From the IMG/VR virus record IMGVR_UViG_3300028363_000006, positions 1-30,458 of that record: 30,458 nt of DNA, one strand, 5' to 3'. This document shows, piece by piece, positions 3,499 to 16,291 of this stretch. This DNA comes from a virus. The position numbers and the translations under genes were made by a program. Position 1 is the stretch's first letter, and the number at the start of each line of letters is the position of its first letter. The notes under the pieces were generated by a model that made no database searches, was not told the origin of the DNA, and saw only the letters and a list, made by a program, of their open reading frames with translations.

Positions 3499-4800
3499 AT
3501 GAAACGCTTTTGGGCAGGCGATAACTTACACAACCTATTGACTAAGTCACTGGATGAACTTGTACAATTATACCCAGAGAAGAATAGAAAAAACTTACAG
3601 CGCAGACAAGAAGAATACAAAAAGAAATTGGGGGATGCAATGGAACGAATACCACAGTCAGACGGAACACCAGACAAGCTCGACAAGTTCGAAGAGCTTC
3701 TAAAGCGTTCAGGCATCGACCCCAATGATGTTGCTGCAATATCACGAATGAACGTCTGGCAGACCTCTAAGCGTGGCGAGGACGGCGAGTGGGATACTAT
3801 TGACCAGTACGGTATGCAGATTAAGCCAAAGCTAGAAAGTACCTCTGAAGCCTACCAACCGGTTGAACCTGCTAAGATTACCGCCACACGGCGCAAAGCG
3901 GCTAAAAGACTTGGCAAGCTTGTTATGGTTTACGGAGATGGACAGGTCGGGTATCGACGCAGAATTGACCCTGTGACAGATGAAACAGAACTTATACCAA
4001 CGCATAACATACCTATGCACAACGTCATCCAACAGGTCAACGCAGACCACATGCCCGAAACAACGGTCAACCTTGGCGATTTTGCAGACTTTGCAGAACT
4101 CTCACGCTTTGACCCCGACAGCGACCACTTCCATAAGACCCTCGGTATGAGTATGAGATATATACACGACTTCTACGCACAGTTGGTAGCAGACAACCCC
4201 AAGGGGCATCACGTTGAGGTGGACTCTAACCACGCCATAAGACCGAAGCGACAGATACTCAAACACATACCAGCCCTGTACGACTTTGTGCGACCCGGTG
4301 CAGAAGATGAAGGCGCAATGCTCACCTACTACTACCTTGCGAACCTTGGCAAGCTTGGTATCGACTTTAGAAGTGGCTATGGCGGTGCTGAATATGCCTA
4401 TGGCGAAGAGTACAATGCTCCACCAGTTATCTTTAAGCATGGCAACCACTCATCGGCTTCACAGGGTACAACCGTTAAAAAAGAGTCAATGCAAAACCCC
4501 GATGTTCACGTTATAAGGGGTCACGGACATAATGACGAACAGATAATGGTTACAAAGCGAGATGGCTCAGTCCTGATATATAAACAGTTTGGTAGCTCTT
4601 GCCTTAATGACGGCCCGACACCTGGCTATGCTTCATCAATAGATGACCAGAACCGACCAGTCAAGTACCATAATAAAGGACACCAGAACACGTTTGGTAT
4701 GCTCCACGATCACGGCGATGGAAGCTACGACCTTGACACGATAATCGTAAGAGATGGTAAGGCTATCTACCGTGAAAAGGAATACAATGGAAACCTTTAA
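3499..4800 (+). CDS. Calcineurin-like metallophosphoesterase
   Basis: 433 aa. Residues ~1-75 look helix-turn-helix-like ('LDELVQLYPEKNRKNLQRR'), similar to actinophage phosphoesterases with a DNA-binding N-terminus. Metal-site motifs are in order: D147 in 'VYGDGQVG', the GDxxD-type 'LGDFADF' (193-198) followed by 'ELSRFDPDSDHF', 'SNHAIR' (243-248, in place of GNHD), 'KHGNH' (313-317) and 'RGHGHND' (340-346, GHxH). It probably hydrolyses phosphodiester or phosphomonoester bonds using two metal ions. The substrate is unknown. The second motif is a variant (SNHA rather than GNHD), though its key Asn-His is kept. Confidence 0.75.
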   Translation: MKRFWAGDNLHNLLTKSLDELVQLYPEKNRKNLQRRQEEYKKKLGDAMERIPQSDGTPDKLDKFEELLKRSGIDPNDVAAISRMNVWQTSKRGEDGEWDTIDQYGMQIKPKLESTSEAYQPVEPAKITATRRKAAKRLGKLVMVYGDGQVGYRRRIDPVTDETELIPTHNIPMHNVIQQVNADHMPETTVNLGDFADFAELSRFDPDSDHFHKTLGMSMRYIHDFYAQLVADNPKGHHVEVDSNHAIRPKRQILKHIPALYDFVRPGAEDEGAMLTYYYLANLGKLGIDFRSGYGGAEYAYGEEYNAPPVIFKHGNHSSASQGTTVKKESMQNPDVHVIRGHGHNDEQIMVTKRDGSVLIYKQFGSSCLNDGPTPGYASSIDDQNRPVKYHNKGHQNTFGMLHDHGDGSYDLDTIIVRDGKAIYREKEYNGNL

Positions 4801-4999
4801 GCAGGGTGCTTACAATCCCGCAGAACACAACCATATTGAATGGTCAGACGAAAAGCTAGACGAGGAAATGGCTATGTGCGACCTTCTACTAGCTCCGTGG
4901 CAACGATCAGAGGAACGTAGACGGCAAATCGGGCAAAGAGCCTTACTAGCTAGGGAAGAAATGATAAACCGCTATGGTGAAAGGCATCAAAATGACTGA
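4787..4999 (+). CDS. Hypothetical protein
   Basis: 70 aa. ATG 4787 with AAAAGG six bases upstream is chosen; it overlaps the end of the phosphoesterase by 14 nt. Acidic and helical ('SDEKLDEEMAMCDLLLAPW', then 'RSEERRRQIGQRALL'). No family recognised. Confidence 0.55.
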   Translation: METFKQGAYNPAEHNHIEWSDEKLDEEMAMCDLLLAPWQRSEERRRQIGQRALLAREEMINRYGERHQND

Positions 5000-5342
5000 A
5001 AAAGAACCCCAGATCAACCTAAGCATAGGCAGCCAAGAGTATTATCTTAGGCGAGATAACTCAGAGCTGTTTCACTTTATTGGAAAACTGGCGGTTTGGA
5101 ATCACATCTTTGTTCTTGACAACGAAAATGACGATGTTAAGCGTGGCACGTTTATACCAAGAGAATACATCGGTGAAGAACCGTTTGATCTACTCGCAGC
5201 AACAATGATACAGAATAAATACCCATCACGTCTGAACCAACGAGAGGTCGCAGAGAGTGACGTAGAGATAATAACAGGTATATTGTCACGCGATGCACAA
5301 AAGCTCGACACAGAGCGTCCTGAGTGGCTAGACGAGGTTTAA
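4992..5342 (+). CDS. Hypothetical protein
   Basis: 116 aa from ATG 4992, chosen for GAAAGG seven bases upstream; an in-frame ATG at 4974 lies deeper in the previous gene. Soluble mixed alpha/beta ('INLSIGSQEYYLRRDNSELF'), with no recognised motif. The C-terminal 'RPEWL' also ends the doubtful protein at 15517-15771, which may be coincidence. Confidence 0.55.
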   Translation: MTEKEPQINLSIGSQEYYLRRDNSELFHFIGKLAVWNHIFVLDNENDDVKRGTFIPREYIGEEPFDLLAATMIQNKYPSRLNQREVAESDVEIITGILSRDAQKLDTERPEWLDEV

Positions 5343-5530: not shown

Positions 5531-5821
5531 TCAGCATAAATTGGAGTTCTTGCGGTTAGATATTACACTAAGTAGCTTGGTTCTCATTGCCGCCACCTTA
5601 GCGGGGTCTGAGGTTCTTTCTACAGGCTGAGGCAAGGTCTTGTATTCTACCGTGTTCTTGTTCTTCGCCACTGATGATATAGAAGATGTGGATATTAAGT
5701 CGTCGCCTATCTCTATCCACCGTGCATTTGATACCAGAGTATTTTTTAGGACTGCTGCTCGTTGATCTGATATTGTCTGAGTCGGTTTGTCTTTATCGTA
5801 GAAGTGGATTGAGTAGGTCAT
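5531..5821 (-). CDS. Hypothetical protein paired with the replication initiator
   Basis: 96 aa on the minus strand. Its ATG overlaps the initiator's TGA (ATGA), so it is translationally coupled. N-terminal 'YSIHFYDKDKPTQTISDQRA' and 'ARWIEIGDDLISTSSISSV' suggest a small beta-rich domain, and the C-terminus is basic. No family recognised. Its place after the initiator suggests a replication or regulatory partner. Confidence 0.6.
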   Translation of the reverse strand: MTYSIHFYDKDKPTQTISDQRAAVLKNTLVSNARWIEIGDDLISTSSISSVAKNKNTVEYKTLPQPVERTSDPAKVAAMRTKLLSVISNRKNSNLC

Positions 5822-6540
5822 ATCTTAACCACCTTGCTGGTATGGCTGACAGATTGGCGCTTACCCCAAGCGATCAGTTCGTCCCACTTCTTGTTGAGAT
5901 CAATGTAATTACTGATACGCGGCGCAAATTGATCGGTTTGGCTCATTGCAACACCTGTAAGCATACGCTCAACCTCGTCTTTGGTCTTGTGTTTAATGAT
6001 ATCTGACACGGCTTTGCGATTAGCTGGCATCTTGGAAGTTAGTTCGTAACCCACTATAGACTCCCACGATTGAAGCATTTCATTTATGTTATTAGTATTA
6101 GTCTTAGTAATATATATATCTTTATTATTATCTTTATCTATATGTTCTGGTGCGACACCAGAAGAACTCTGGAGGATTTCATCATCGATCAACAGATTAA
6201 AGTGGTCTAAAACGTGTTCGGGTATAAGCTCTTTTTCTTTCTCTACGGTCTTGTCAGTAAAACGACCCTTTTTTGCCATTTCGTGACCCTTGGCTAGTAT
6301 GTAAAAGCCGTCAAATATATCAACATAGCCTAGATCTATAAGCTGTTTAACCGCCACCTCTACCTGCTCGGTGCTAAGACCCGAGTATGCTGATATTACC
6401 TTTGGCTTGTAGTGATAGATATTTGCCAGTCCCTTTTCTGGATTAGTAAGCATATATAAATATAGCAACTTACTGTCTAGGTGTAGAAGATCAATGGTAT
6501 CTTCTTTCCAAAAGGTTGTGTTGATTAAAGTTGTTCTCAT
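5818..6540 (-). CDS. Replication initiator / replisome organiser (winged helix, DnaD-like tail)
   Basis: 240 aa, minus strand. The N-terminal ~90 residues read as a winged helix of the phage replication-protein type ('WKEDTIDLLHLDSKLLYLYM', 'KPKVISAYSGLSTEQVEVAV', 'LIDLGYVDIFDGFYILAKG'). A polar Asn/Thr-rich linker follows (~120-160). The C-terminal ~80 residues ('PANRKAVSDIIKHKTKDEVE', 'APRISNYIDLNKKWDELIAW') resemble the DnaD-like segments that end with the stretch contacting the helicase loader. It would bind the origin and recruit the host helicase. It has two promoters and an SD buried in a hairpin, so its dose appears tightly controlled. Confidence 0.7.
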   Translation of the reverse strand: MRTTLINTTFWKEDTIDLLHLDSKLLYLYMLTNPEKGLANIYHYKPKVISAYSGLSTEQVEVAVKQLIDLGYVDIFDGFYILAKGHEMAKKGRFTDKTVEKEKELIPEHVLDHFNLLIDDEILQSSSGVAPEHIDKDNNKDIYITKTNTNNINEMLQSWESIVGYELTSKMPANRKAVSDIIKHKTKDEVERMLTGVAMSQTDQFAPRISNYIDLNKKWDELIAWGKRQSVSHTSKVVKI

Positions 6541-6547
6541 AAAGAAA

Positions 6548-6566
6548 CCCTCCTTTTTGGGGAGGG
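6548..6566 (-). promoter_or_regulatory. SD-sequestering hairpin of the replication gene
   Basis: On the minus strand CCCTCC pairs with GGAGGG (6 bp, 7-nt loop). The GGAGGG is the SD itself (AAGGAGGG, 7 nt before ATG 6540). In the closed form the ribosome site is masked. Confidence 0.55.
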
Positions 6567-6568
6567 CT

Positions 6569-6657
6569 ACCTACTTAGTCTTATTCATTATATCAGACAA
6601 AGGTGTTACCCTCAACCCCTATTTAGTATTGAGAGTATCACGAACGACTAAGTAGGT
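6569..6657 (-). repeat. 12-bp perfect inverted repeat in the rep leader
   Basis: ACCTACTTAGTC (6569-6580) and its exact complement GACTAAGTAGGT (6646-6657) flank 65 bp that contain the proximal rep promoter. The arms could pair in the longer transcript or be paired operator sites. One arm lies at the predicted start of the proximal transcript. Confidence 0.6.
6587..6615 (-). promoter_or_regulatory. Proximal rep promoter
   Basis: Minus strand: TTGAGG, 17 nt, TATAAT (6592-6587) preceded by TGA, an extended -10. The predicted start near 6580 is 40 nt upstream of the rep ATG. Confidence 0.6.
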
Positions 6658-6669
6658 GATACAACCTCT

Positions 6670-6698
6670 ATTATACATAAAATACTGCTTACGTTCAA
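6670..6698 (-). promoter_or_regulatory. Distal rep promoter
   Basis: Minus strand: TTGAAC, 17 nt, TATAAT (6675-6670). The predicted start near 6663 makes a ~120-nt leader that includes both arms of the 12-bp inverted repeat. Confidence 0.55.
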
Positions 6699-6750
6699 CC
6701 CCCAAAATATCTAGCCTGTGTAGAACCTGTGCCTAAAGTTTAATGTGTAG

Positions 6751-6833
6751 AAAAAAAGAAGCCGTGTAGACTTCTTTTAGACCGTACCGACAGACATCAA
6801 TTTGCCGGTAAACAGGTGCGCCCCAATGGGGAT
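6751..6833 (-). ncRNA. Candidate sRNA 5 of the minus-strand array
   Basis: An extended -10 TGGTATAAT (hexamer 6845-6840) predicts a start at A6833. The RNA begins with a CCCC-ATT-GGGG hairpin (about 6831-6821). It contains a TACCG/CGGTA helix and ends in AAAAGAAG / CTTCTTTT (6778-6771 with 6761-6754, 8 bp perfect, 9-nt loop) followed by further U's: a strong intrinsic terminator. Predicted length ~83 nt. No reading frame with an SD is visible. Its promoter directly abuts the terminator U-tract of sRNA 4. Confidence 0.6.
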
Positions 6834-6847
6834 ATGCTTATTATACC

Positions 6848-6947
6848 AAAAGAAATACGAGCCTCATAGTGTAGATGTCTCGTATCCTTCTGAAAAAAGT
6901 TGCCGTGAGGGCATAAGGTGCGATAGACTGCCGTAGCCTGTCTTTAC
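6848..6947 (-). ncRNA. Candidate sRNA 4 of the minus-strand array
   Basis: Extended -10 TGATATAAT (hexamer 6959-6954), start ~6947. The 3' end is ATACGAG / CTCGTAT (6885-6879 with 6861-6855, 7 bp, 17-nt loop) followed by TTTCTTTT. An earlier TGCC/GGCA hairpin followed by AC and six T (about 6915-6893) could also terminate, giving a shorter form. The loop carries TCTACAC, also found in the sRNA 5 terminator loop. Confidence 0.55.
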
Positions 6948-6965
6948 ATAAGCATTATATCACAT

Positions 6966-7060
6966 AAAAATATCCCCTTAATTCTTGGGGATATTATACC
7001 TGTTGGTGTGCGCTTTCAACGAAATACCCCGATAGTTATGTTTCCAGTGAACTTACGGAT
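6966..7060 (-). ncRNA. Candidate sRNA 3 of the minus-strand array
   Basis: Extended -10 TGGTATAAT (hexamer 7072-7067), start at A7060. The RNA ends in AATATCCCC / GGGGATATT (6995-6987 with 6977-6969, 9 bp perfect) running into five U. Predicted length ~95 nt. The body (GTAAGTTCACTGGAAAC, ATCGGGGTATTTCG) has no SD-preceded ORF. Confidence 0.6.
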
Positions 7061-7078
7061 AATTACATTATACCACAA

Positions 7079-7136
7079 TTAAAAATAGAACCCCGGACAG
7101 AGTTCTATTGTGTTTGGCAGTTACCAACAATATCTA
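7079..7136 (-). ncRNA. Candidate sRNA 2 of the minus-strand array
   Basis: Extended -10 TGCTACAAT (hexamer 7148-7143), start ~7136. The terminator is AATAGAAC / GTTCTATT (7109-7102 with 7091-7084, 8 bp perfect, 10-nt loop) followed by U's. A second hairpin ATTGT/ACAAT (7131-7107) overlaps the terminator stem by three bases, so the two folds compete. Predicted length ~58 nt, the shortest of the array. Confidence 0.55.
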
Positions 7137-7162
7137 GTAATTATTGTAGCACACAGTTATTA

Positions 7163-7255
7163 AAAATAAAAGAGCCGCTGGTGGGAGCGACTCAGTAGCA
7201 GTGGGTAGAAAGGTCTACAACAGAATTAACAAAACTGTAAGAGATTCCCACTACT
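7163..7255 (-). ncRNA. Candidate sRNA 1 of the minus-strand array, with anti-SD loop
   Basis: Extended -10 TGGTATAAT (hexamer 7267-7262), start at A7255. The body can close AGTAG/CTACT and GTGGG/CCCAC pairings. The terminator is GAGTCGCT / AGCGGCTC (7193-7186 with 7179-7172, 8 bp with one G-U, 6-nt loop) then TTTTATTTTT. A small hairpin GTAG-ACCTTT-CTAC (7218-7205) shows ACCUUU in its loop. The segment UUGUAGACCUUUCU (7220-7207) is complementary to the SD regions of the early cassettes. Predicted length ~93 nt. Confidence 0.6.
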
Positions 7256-7292
7256 GCCTACATTATACCAGATAAGTCACAGGTTAAAAGTG

Positions 7293-7321
7293 TTGTATAT
7301 GTATTGCGGTCGTGGTACAAT
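7293..7321 (+). promoter_or_regulatory. Early promoter cassette 1
   Basis: TTGTAT, 17 nt, TACAAT (7316-7321) with TGG before the hexamer. The spacer contains ATTGCGGTCGTGGTA (7303-7317), identical to 12163-12177. The predicted start near 7328 drives the recombination operon. It is back to back with the sRNA 1 promoter (7262-7267). Confidence 0.75.
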
Positions 7322-7348
7322 AGGGGTATAAACAAGAAAGGTTTACAA

Positions 7349-7480
7349 ATGAACAAAGACCAAGTAACTATAATTGAACTATTAATCAGGAAGTCTGCAC
7401 TTAAAGACGTAGAGATTTGGCTTAACGAGCAGTACGTTATCATCGATCAAGCCATTCGGGAAGTTGAGGAAACAAAATAA
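7349..7480 (+). CDS. Small hypothetical protein
   Basis: 43 aa, helical ('IIELLIRKSALKDVEIWL'). First gene of the early operon; SD AGAAAGG lies in the conserved leader just before the ATG. The stop overlaps the next start (TAATG). No family recognised. Confidence 0.6.
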   Translation: MNKDQVTIIELLIRKSALKDVEIWLNEQYVIIDQAIREVEETK

Positions 7481-7575
7481 TGAGTATAGTACACTGCGAC
7501 ACACACGGAAACATTGACACTGACTTTAACGCAGAGCATTTTAACGCCACTGAAGATTGTGCGGAGGATCTATAA
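7480..7575 (+). CDS. Small hypothetical protein
   Basis: 31 aa, acidic ('MSIVHCDTHGNIDTDFNAEH'), coupled on both sides by TAATG overlaps. It may act mainly to carry ribosomes from the leader to the annealase gene. Function unknown. Confidence 0.5.
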   Translation: MSIVHCDTHGNIDTDFNAEHFNATEDCAEDL

Positions 7576-8108
7576 TGTCACGCGAAATTACAAGAGCCGA
7601 ACTATTAAAAGTAAACTCTGAACTTACTACCGAGCAGGTACAAAAGTTCTTTACCCAGACACCCAAGAACAAGATTAAGAGCCGACCAGCAAAAGGTGGA
7701 GGTCAATGGGACTATGTCGCAGGCTCATACGTTACTCAGGTATTAAACTCCCTGTTTGGCTTTAACTGGAGCTTTAAGGTTGTTACATCAATGACCGAAG
7801 CCCTAGCAACAGCAAATACAGGTACAGTCGTAGTACAAGGTCAACTAAGCGTCAAGATTGGCGATGAGTGGATTACCAAAGAACAATACGGACGCAAAGA
7901 AGTTGCCTACAAAAAAGGTACTGATATGCCCCTAGACTTCGGTAACGACATGAAAGCCGCAGCCACCGACGCTAAAAAGAAATGCGCCAGTGAACTCGGA
8001 CTTTTTGCAGATGTCTATTCAAAAGAAGATTTCTTTGAGGCTGATGTCGTAGAGCAAAAGACCGTTGAAGATAAGGTTGCTGAACTTAAAAAGAAAATGG
8101 AATCGTAA
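7575..8108 (+). CDS. Rad52-family single-strand annealing protein
   Basis: 177 aa from ATG 7575, chosen for GGAGG (7563-7567) seven bases upstream; an in-frame TTG at 7557 lies before the SD. The segment 'WDYVAGSYVTQVLNSLFGFN' with 'WSFKVV' (~residues 45-75) is the conserved Rad52/Sak core, and 'DMKAAATDAKKKCASELGLF' (~130-150) is the second conserved block. The protein anneals complementary single strands during phage recombination. It is followed with a one-base overlap by the partner exonuclease. The C-terminal ~30 residues are charged, as usual. Confidence 0.85.
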   Translation: MSREITRAELLKVNSELTTEQVQKFFTQTPKNKIKSRPAKGGGQWDYVAGSYVTQVLNSLFGFNWSFKVVTSMTEALATANTGTVVVQGQLSVKIGDEWITKEQYGRKEVAYKKGTDMPLDFGNDMKAAATDAKKKCASELGLFADVYSKEDFFEADVVEQKTVEDKVAELKKKMES

Positions 8109-8782
8109 TGAGAATAATTGAAACACAGCAACGCAGCGAAGAATGGATTGAAGCCCGCAGGGGAATCATTACCGGAACTAAAGCCAAGACTGTCGCCCCT
8201 CCCAAGCGTGGCAACGTTACCCCACAGGGTATCTACGAGCTACTAGCTGAACAGGTCGCTATTGCTAAAGACGGCGAACCAGAGCGTGATCGTGGACTAA
8301 GGCTTGAAGAAGAAGCCATTAAAAAGACAGCCGACAAGTACAAACTAAACATCACAACCGAAGCTGGTATGTGGCTCTCAGACGATGGCAAGCTAGGCGT
8401 AAGCCCTGACGGTGCAGAAGTCGGCGACAAGCCAACCTACGCAGTCGAAGCTAAGTGCCTTGATAGCAAGAACCACCTACAAGGAATACTCAACGACGTA
8501 GCCAACAAAAAGCTCCCCGGCTACAACCCACTAGGCAGCCTCAAGATTGCAACCTCGGACTATTCGGATCAGGTTATTCAATACTTTGTCGTTAACCCTG
8601 ACTTAAAGATTGTTTACTTCACGCTATACGATGACCGCATCGCCCTTGATAACATTGTCCACTACGTCATAGAAGTTAAAAGAGATGACATTGCAGAATA
8701 CATCGAGGGTCAAGAAGCCTACGAAAGAGATGCGCTTAACAGGGTCGCAGAGATGATTAAAACATTAAAGGAGATAAAATGA
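8108..8782 (+). CDS. YqaJ / lambda-exonuclease-like recombinase nuclease
   Basis: 224 aa. N-terminal 'QRSEEWIEARRGIITGTKAK' is the typical YqaJ entry motif ('r..eW...R.g.iTaS'). 'GLRLEEEAI' supplies the conserved Glu. The PD-(D/E)xK core is 'LGVSPDGAEVG' (D ~103) and 'YAVEAKCLDSK' (E-x-K). A beta strand with 'DQVIQYFVVNPDLKIVYF' follows. It digests one strand from double-strand ends to load the Rad52-type annealase encoded just upstream, an arrangement analogous to Red alpha/beta. Start and stop overlap both neighbours. Confidence 0.88.
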   Translation: MRIIETQQRSEEWIEARRGIITGTKAKTVAPPKRGNVTPQGIYELLAEQVAIAKDGEPERDRGLRLEEEAIKKTADKYKLNITTEAGMWLSDDGKLGVSPDGAEVGDKPTYAVEAKCLDSKNHLQGILNDVANKKLPGYNPLGSLKIATSDYSDQVIQYFVVNPDLKIVYFTLYDDRIALDNIVHYVIEVKRDDIAEYIEGQEAYERDALNRVAEMIKTLKEIK

Positions 8783-12160: not shown

Positions 12161-12186
12161 ACATTGCGGTCGTGGTATGGTACTAT
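12158..12186 (+). promoter_or_regulatory. Early promoter cassette 2
   Basis: TTTACA, 17 nt, TACTAT (12181-12186) preceded by TGG. Its 15-bp ATTGCGGTCGTGGTA (12163-12177) is identical to cassette 1, and the leader AGAAAGGTCTATCAA is nearly the same. Confidence 0.7.
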
Positions 12187-12215
12187 TAAATAGATAACTA
12201 AGAAAGGTCTATCAA

Positions 12216-12497
12216 ATGCAAAACTACTTCGATAACAACATTAAGCCCCTAGTCGATACCCTAGAACGGCTGAAGGGTACAACCCACCTCACCATCAGGC
12301 AGGTAGAAGATGAGGACGGCGAAACTCAGATCTCAGTCTGGGTAAACGATGAATGCAACCACGCAGCCGCCGATTACCAAGACGTACTTATAGCTAACTT
12401 TGACAACGACAGCCACGAATGGATTAAAAACGACTCAGAGCGCACCCTTGTCTGCGATACCTGCGACAAGCAACTTATCTTTGGGGAGTGGCTATGA
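12216..12497 (+). CDS. Hypothetical protein with two CxxC-type cysteine pairs
   Basis: 93 aa, acidic. The middle is 'THLTIRQVEDEDGETQISVW'; the C-terminal half has 'DECNHAAADY' and 'LVCDTCDKQLIFGEWL', so a small zinc-binding site (C/H plus CxxC) is plausible. First gene of the second early operon, reading straight from cassette 2. No family recognised. Confidence 0.6.
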   Translation: MQNYFDNNIKPLVDTLERLKGTTHLTIRQVEDEDGETQISVWVNDECNHAAADYQDVLIANFDNDSHEWIKNDSERTLVCDTCDKQLIFGEWL

Positions 12498-15772: not shown

Positions 15773-15801
15773 TTCACATTCTATAAGGGTCGTGGTACAC
15801 T
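15773..15801 (+). promoter_or_regulatory. Early promoter cassette 3
   Basis: TTCACA, 17 nt, TACACT (15796-15801) preceded by TGG. It shares GGTCGTGGTAC with cassettes 1 and 2, and the leader AGAAAGGCTACACA before ATG 15827. Confidence 0.65.
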
Positions 15802-15826
15802 ACGAGTAGCAAAGAAAGGCTACACA

Positions 15827-16291
15827 ATGAAAATACTAATCGTAACCACCCTAGCAGCAGCATTACTGTTCTTATTGTTGGCCCCTCAATTAGCTAAAGC
15901 ACCAGAGACCACAGTACAGCCTACAATGACTATCTCAAACGACATCGAAACCCTAGTCAATCAAGCCAGAAACACAGAGAGCCTCGTACCGTTTAACAGC
16001 AATCAAACTCTCAGGAATAGCGCCTGCAACAAAGCCCAAGACATGATAGACAAGAACTACTGGTCACACAACCAACCAGACGGCACTACACCCTGGCACT
16101 TTATTACAGACGCAGGATACAACTACACCAAAGCTGGAGAGAACCTAGCTAGAAACTACCCAACACCAGAAGCAACCGTACAGGCATGGCTTAACAGCCC
16201 ACTTCACAAAGCAAACATTACCGACCACTTCACCGACCAAGGCATCTGCACAGTACAGAACATCACAGTACAACACCTAGGACGCAAGTAA
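15827..16291 (+). CDS. Secreted CAP-domain (SCP/PR1-like) protein
   Basis: 154 aa. Signal peptide ~1-25 ('ILIVTTLAAALLFLLLAPQL'). CAP core: 'LVNQARNTESLVPFNSNQTL', 'YWSHNQPDGTTPWHFITDAG' (His of the cavity), 'AGENLARNYPTPEATVQAWL' (Glu), 'SPLHKANI' (second His) and 'QGICTVQN'. Bacterial CAP proteins act at the envelope, some on lipids or wall. It is the sole gene of cassette 3, so it is expressed with the early genes and exported. This is unusual for a phage and may alter the host surface or protect the infected cell. Confidence 0.82.
   Translation: MKILIVTTLAAALLFLLLAPQLAKAPETTVQPTMTISNDIETLVNQARNTESLVPFNSNQTLRNSACNKAQDMIDKNYWSHNQPDGTTPWHFITDAGYNYTKAGENLARNYPTPEATVQAWLNSPLHKANITDHFTDQGICTVQNITVQHLGRK

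Follow-up and report, generated by a model that had tools for sequence, protein, structure and literature searches.

Does the intergenic region between the replication initiator gene and the divergent early genes of this phage encode regulatory RNAs, and what would such RNAs act on? The window, i.e. the whole stretch of DNA that was analysed, is an IMG/VR virus record of 30,458 bp carrying genes for terminase, portal, capsid and holin. The surroundings of the region are laid out as follows:

5818-6540, minus strand: gene for a DnaD-like replication initiator / helicase loader
6541-7303: intergenic region between the initiator gene (minus) and the divergent early genes (7349 onward, plus)
6541-6698, minus strand: two sigma-70-type promoters of the initiator gene, with -35 elements at 6698 and 6615
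7303-7321, plus strand: promoter of the early operon, with element ATTGCGGTCGTGGTA and extended -10 TGGTACAAT
7335-7351, plus strand: RBS and start codon of the 43-aa gene (AGAAAGGTTTACAAATG), predicted RNA1 binding site
7349-7480, plus strand: gene for the 43-aa early protein
7575-8108, plus strand: gene for a Rad52-like single-strand annealing protein
8108-8782, plus strand: gene for a YqaJ/RecE-like exonuclease, in the same operon as the 43-aa and Rad52-like genes

The 43-aa protein is polar and charged. The small plus-strand reading frame listed from TTG 7304 is a real gene, but its start is ATG 7349; it has a homolog in L058 (78% identity over 41 aa). The host of the phage is likely saccharibacterial (patescibacterial), because the best genome matches of a profile of the Rad52-like protein were two Candidatus Saccharibacteria MAGs; a terminase scan of genome contigs gave no match.

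The earlier note had read the region as a tandem array of five small RNAs, each with its own promoter and terminator. Direct reading of the sequence located all five minus-strand extended -10 nine-mers where they had been placed, and each is followed by a GC-containing hairpin and a U-tract. The units comprise the following features:

7262-7270, minus strand: RNA1 extended -10 promoter TGGTATAAT, at the same position as relative to RNA A in the phage G005
7163-7255, minus strand: RNA1, predicted transcript of about 93 nt (ends approximate)
7255-7247/7205-7197, minus strand: closing stem of RNA1, 9 bp, with an inner hairpin within and the anti-RBS segment exposed
7207-7220, minus strand: anti-RBS segment of RNA1, UUGUAGACCUUUCU, 14-bp complement of 7335-7348
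7193-7172, minus strand: terminator stem of RNA1, then a U-tract
7079-7136, minus strand: RNA2, promoter TGCTACAAT at 7151-7143
7109-7084, minus strand: terminator stem of RNA2; G005 has a similar one
6966-7060, minus strand: RNA3, promoter TGGTATAAT at 7075-7067, terminator AATATCCCC/GGGGATATT, then a U-tract
6848-6947, minus strand: RNA4, promoter TGATATAAT at 6962-6954, terminator ATACGAG/GCUCGUAU
6751-6833, minus strand: RNA5, promoter TGGTATAAT at 6848-6840, terminator AAAAGAAG/CUUCUUUU plus a U-tract

The five-unit array is far above chance. Of the nine exact TGNTATAAT sites of the 30-kb window, five lie within 6541-7303, all on one strand (binomial P about 4e-8); one of these belongs to the initiator leader, and the value for the remaining four is 3e-6. 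Promoter-plus-terminator units number five in 763 nt as compared to 0-2 in 300 first-order Markov sequences, and a scan of other segments of the phage, not overlapping the array, yielded at most one or two. When each interval was folded, four of the five predicted transcripts beat dinucleotide shuffles (z -2.3 to -3.3), RNA3 being weakly better (z -1.6). Neither strand of the region holds a convincing gene: the open reading frames of 44-61 aa touching it lack supporting homology. Rfam returned no match for the region at the gathering threshold and no regulatory RNA of this kind at relaxed thresholds (E <= 5), nor did blastn of the array region against phage records. An array of phage small RNAs is the best explanation of the region; their independent transcription is predicted from the signals in the DNA.

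Other kinds of array were considered and rejected. A CRISPR or TIGR guide array would consist of regularly repeated tandem units, and no tandem repeat array was found over the region, in which repeats are short and dispersed only. An array of tRNA or tmRNA genes was dismissed for want of cloverleaf genes, none being found by ARAGORN, and 6S RNA for want of an Rfam match, RNA1 measuring about 93 nt. PADLOC applied to seven neighbouring proteins gave one marginal match and nothing useful. The five RNAs are not one repeated family, since their relatives differ RNA by RNA.

The leader of the initiator gene is structured as well. It contains a 12-nt inverted repeat (6569-6580/6646-6657) and a hairpin in which the SD lies, folds with a z of -4.1, and may be a riboregulator of the initiator gene. 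A weak Rfam match of this leader to Phe_leader (E 0.3) was rejected.

A candidate target emerged for RNA1. In the window, RNA1 can form 14 pairs with AGAAAGGTTTACAA, immediately upstream of ATG 7349, reflecting a direct repeat (7207-7225/7335-7353) that places a copy of the RBS inside the RNA1 gene. Among 47 gene starts of the window, the divergent gene is the best partner of RNA1 (-23.1 vs -17.8 kcal/mol for the next), and when the contiguous plus-strand complements of RNA1 in the 30 kb are ranked, the top two are RBSs. The energy of contiguous RNA1 complementarity in the whole genome was not unusual when compared to shuffled RNA, and therefore the case for RNA1 rests on position and comparison. 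Whole-RNA duplex energies were too noisy for target finding. When upstream regions were searched for RBS copies in general, 285 hits were obtained vs 229 in the null at -17 kcal/mol; being hardly above null, this indicates that RBS repetition is not a general feature. RNA1 (7255-7163) does not overlap its target transcript, predicted to start near 7328, as a cis-antisense RNA would. Rather, it has its own promoter, an intrinsic terminator and a complementarity that co-varies with the target, as is characteristic of trans-acting sRNAs. A type I toxin-antitoxin system was rejected, as the 43-aa target is polar and charged and the target is Rad52-like in five phages.

We also looked for RNA1 in other phages. 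The IMG/VR phages L042 and L041 are nearly identical to the window over the region, while G005 is a diverged phage, whose terminase and initiator are 78% and 31% identical to those of the window, respectively. G005 has the same layout at the same place: a small early gene with its promoter on one strand, and on the other strand TGGTATAAT, a terminated structured RNA, an additional RNA with an RNA2-like terminator, another TGGTATAAT, the leader and the initiator gene. Further phages were gathered by a search with the Rad52-like protein. At the equivalent divergent junction, G005, L043, L044, L047, L051, L082, L119, L121 and L171 each have a counterpart of RNA1, i.e. RNA1 is known from ten phage contigs including the window. 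A target-blind scan for structure plus CCTTTC recovered it in the window, G005, L044, L047, L119 and L121. The L082 counterpart was found by a promoter-terminator scan, those of L043 and L171 were recognised through reading of the region, and that of L051 by reading plus loop complementarity to the target. No RNA1 was detected upstream of Rad52 in several relatives (L045, L048, L052, L137 and others).

Most counterparts share the anatomy of RNA1: a closing stem that usually begins at or within a few nt of the predicted 5' end, an inner hairpin and, on the 3' side, a segment that is exposed in a bubble or loop and mostly contains CCUUU. For the most part, this core is unpaired or needs little energy to be opened. 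The terminator is separate in the window, G005, L043 and L121; in most other counterparts, the closing stem followed by U's serves as terminator. Domain folds were better than at least 97% of dinucleotide shuffles in 8 of 10 cases, the fold of L121 being weak and that of L043 no better than shuffles (z -0.8). L082 possesses two tandem RNAs (2867-2816 and 2782-2677, minus strand), both with AGCCCUUUCA and both aimed at the same Rad52 RBS, which apparently represent a duplicated RNA1.

Next, we asked whether RNA1 and its neighbouring gene belong together in each phage. The RNA1 segment can form 15 pairs with the early-gene RBS in L171, 13 in L047 and L044, 12 in G005 and 11 in L043. The apparent direct target is the Rad52-like gene in L043, L044, L047, L082 and L121; in L121 an HNH endonuclease gene intervenes and the complement lies at the next gene, which is the Rad52-like one. 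When RNAs and targets were swapped among the ten phages, which are not independent lineages and for which segments were partly chosen by reading, cognate pairs averaged -18.2 kcal/mol vs -11.0 for non-cognate pairs. The true pairing was the optimal assignment, and none of 400,000 permutations was as good. A test restricted to the eight phages known first, in which L121 was still assigned the wrong gene, had given 1 in 40,320, and counting exclusively pairs outside the common CCUUU/AAAGG core gave 4 in 362,880. The members are too divergent to align, which precludes a standard covariation test or a covariance model. In L043, the 12-nt RNA1-complementary RBS of the Rad52 gene recurs at two further genes (2003 and 2944, minus strand).

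From this co-change of RNA1 and neighbouring target across ten phages, we consider it probable that RNA1 is an antisense RNA that, without Hfq, competes with the ribosome for early mRNAs. RNA1 and the early recombination operon are predicted to be transcribed divergently, and RNA1 would act in trans. Its predicted fold consists of the closing stem, the inner hairpin and a bubble exposing UUGUAGACCUUUCU, and the bubble segment would pair with the RBS of the first early gene, AGAAAGGUUUACAAAUG. There, RNA1 would compete with the 3' tail of 16S rRNA for the same AGAAAGG. As 16S was not found in the two MAGs with Rad52 matches, its tail was read from genomes in the family of one of them, in which the 16S rRNA genes end with CCUCCUUUCUA. 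Hence AGAAAGG is read via the same CCUUUCU that RNA1 offers, and a bound RNA1 should keep the 30S subunit out. Duplex formation would lower translation of the 43-aa/Rad52/exonuclease operon; the expected sign is repression, its timing likewise being deduced. Hfq was detected in 0 of 145 genomes of the phylum by a search that was positive in five control genomes, and a structured RNA presenting its own seed in a bubble fits an Hfq-free system.

Two more promoters of the window bear on the reach of RNA1:

12163-12218, plus strand: second promoter, with ATTGCGGTCGTGGTA, and RBS AGAAAGGTCTATCAAATG with 12 contiguous pairs to RNA1
15783-15829, plus strand: third promoter, with GGTCGTGGTA, and RBS AGAAAGGCTACACAATG of gene 15827 (CAP-domain type)

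The element (ATTGC)GGTCGTGGTA is shared by the early operon promoter and these two (7303-7317, 12163-12177 and 15783-15797, plus strand), and all three genes have an AGAAAGG RBS. Genes 12216 and 15827 rank second and fourth among the RNA1 partners. Shared element, AGAAAGG sites and high pairing rank together suggest that RNA1 and the promoter element define a small phage regulon, in which RNA1 would probably also lower translation of the other AGAAAGG genes 12216, 15827 and perhaps 10756. The product of 15827-16291 (plus strand) is a secreted CAP-domain-like protein assigned to the PHROG 'sporulation protein'; G008 has one too.

RNA2 to RNA5 probably are regulatory RNAs, too. RNA4 has a core composed of GCUUAUGUAAAGA, a hairpin with a UACG-type loop and UCGYACCUUAUG, which is conserved over about 45 nt in L171, where RNA1 diverged much more. 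In a pattern scan of IMG/VR, this core occurred only in the window and L171 lineages. The near-identical phage L041 (92-215, minus strand) differs by a single substitution in the loop of the RNA4 hairpin, where UACG has become CACG. In L171, about 1.1 kb of apparently noncoding DNA (4230-5310) occupies the place of the initiator gene, and RNA1 and RNA4 are retained. RNA2 resembles its G005 counterpart only in the terminator and the following promoter, and no relatives of RNA3 and RNA5 were found. None of RNA2 to RNA5 had a phage RBS target better than shuffles. A 15-bp complement of RNA3 in the tape-measure gene (26961, plus strand), matched by 1 of 200 shuffles, was rejected after five tests as possibly due to chance.

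How else could the RNA1 data be explained? RNA1 might be a general mimic of the 16S tail, whose CCUUUCUA blocks or titrates SD sites of phage and host alike, without specificity. RNA1 does share CCUUUCUA with the 16S 3' tail of the host type, and CCUUU recurs in most RNA1 counterparts, but the gene-specific flanks form pairs as well and change along with the neighbouring target, as reflected by the flank-only swap test (4/362,880), and L171 and L051 use other segments that still match their own neighbour; we regard this possibility as improbable. We give equally little credit to the idea that a regulatory protein of the phage binds the repeated RBS, as DNA or as RNA, with the small transcripts as by-products. 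This would account for the direct repeat 7207-7225/7335-7353, and the shared promoter elements show that regulation at the DNA level exists. However, in each phage one copy of the repeat falls at an RBS and the other in an exposed portion of a transcript with a terminator, the opposite strand has no start codon at a consistent RBS distance, and an operator would not have to be positioned at an RBS. Very unlikely, in our view, is that the units are tandem promoters and terminators that insulate or attenuate initiator transcription, with mere spacer in between: every unit is directed toward the initiator gene, whose leader is strongly structured itself, yet both RNA1 and the core of RNA4 show conservation at the level of the transcript, and RNA1 and RNA4 are retained in L171 with no initiator gene downstream. 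Antisense action of RNA1 at the neighbouring early RBS thus remains the preferred reading.

For RNA2 to RNA5, action on host mRNAs or proteins in the course of host takeover, independently of RNA1, is a serious possibility, although we hold it to be somewhat less than even. Conservation of the RNA4 core over ~45 nt where RNA1 diverged would agree with a host target, as would the lack of an enriched phage RBS complement in RNA2 to RNA5, whereas RNA3 does have one strong phage complement, located within a coding region. Taken together, the earlier proposal of a phage sRNA cluster beside the initiator gene is supported, and control of early genes gains comparative support in the case of RNA1; for the suggested control of replication or host functions, we found no evidence of action on the initiator or host mRNAs.

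Phage RNAs with a comparable predicted mode of action have been described. The c4 antisense RNA of phages P1 and P7 blocks translation via RBS-complementary loops (Citron and Schuster 1990, summarised in PMC12197685), and the sar antisense RNA of phage P22 is a short RNA that targets the RBS of an early-type gene of that phage (PMC12197685). Like c4, RNA1 is a structured phage RNA with exposed segments complementary to a phage RBS. The c4 RNA arises by processing of the transcript that also carries its target ant, and it pairs through two complementary stretches; RNA1 is a minus-strand RNA that has a promoter and a terminator of its own, and its plus-strand target is a recombination operon. 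We do not assign RNA1 to the c4 family, given the lacking Rfam match and the different gene arrangement and target class. RNA1 resembles sar as a short phage RNA directed at the RBS of an early-type gene; sar is cis-encoded and overlaps its target fully, whereas RNA1 lies outside the target gene and its complementarity is short and imperfect. Short imperfect SD pairing, several targets and an intrinsic terminator are also traits of RBS-blocking bacterial sRNAs, from which RNA1 differs in that it is carried by a phage, sits beside its main target, forms part of an array and is found in a phylum in which Hfq was not detected. The array adjoins a replication initiator gene as do the plasmid copy-number antisense RNAs CopA and RNAI, but its RNAs are on the initiator's own strand, and the target identified for RNA1 lies on the opposite side. 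The statement that no described family has this layout holds within Rfam and the searched literature, with c4 and sar resembling the mode proposed for RNA1. The literature searches yielded no work on regulatory RNAs in Saccharibacteria or in phages that infect them.

A far-reaching and rather doubtful extension is that the array constitutes a phage-run, Hfq-independent layer of RNA regulation in patescibacterial hosts, whose structured antisense members have their own phage or host targets, with RNA1 heading a regulon and with arrays that expand as RNAs are duplicated and retargeted, for which the tandem copies in L082 give a hint. The comparison also offers a way to find such RNAs, namely by looking for an early-gene RBS that is repeated inside a divergent, terminated transcript. 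RNA1 itself is a defined RNA with a named target, which can be checked through swaps of the pairing bases. If this reading is true, a recombination operon of a phage would be under antisense control in a system that lacks Hfq.
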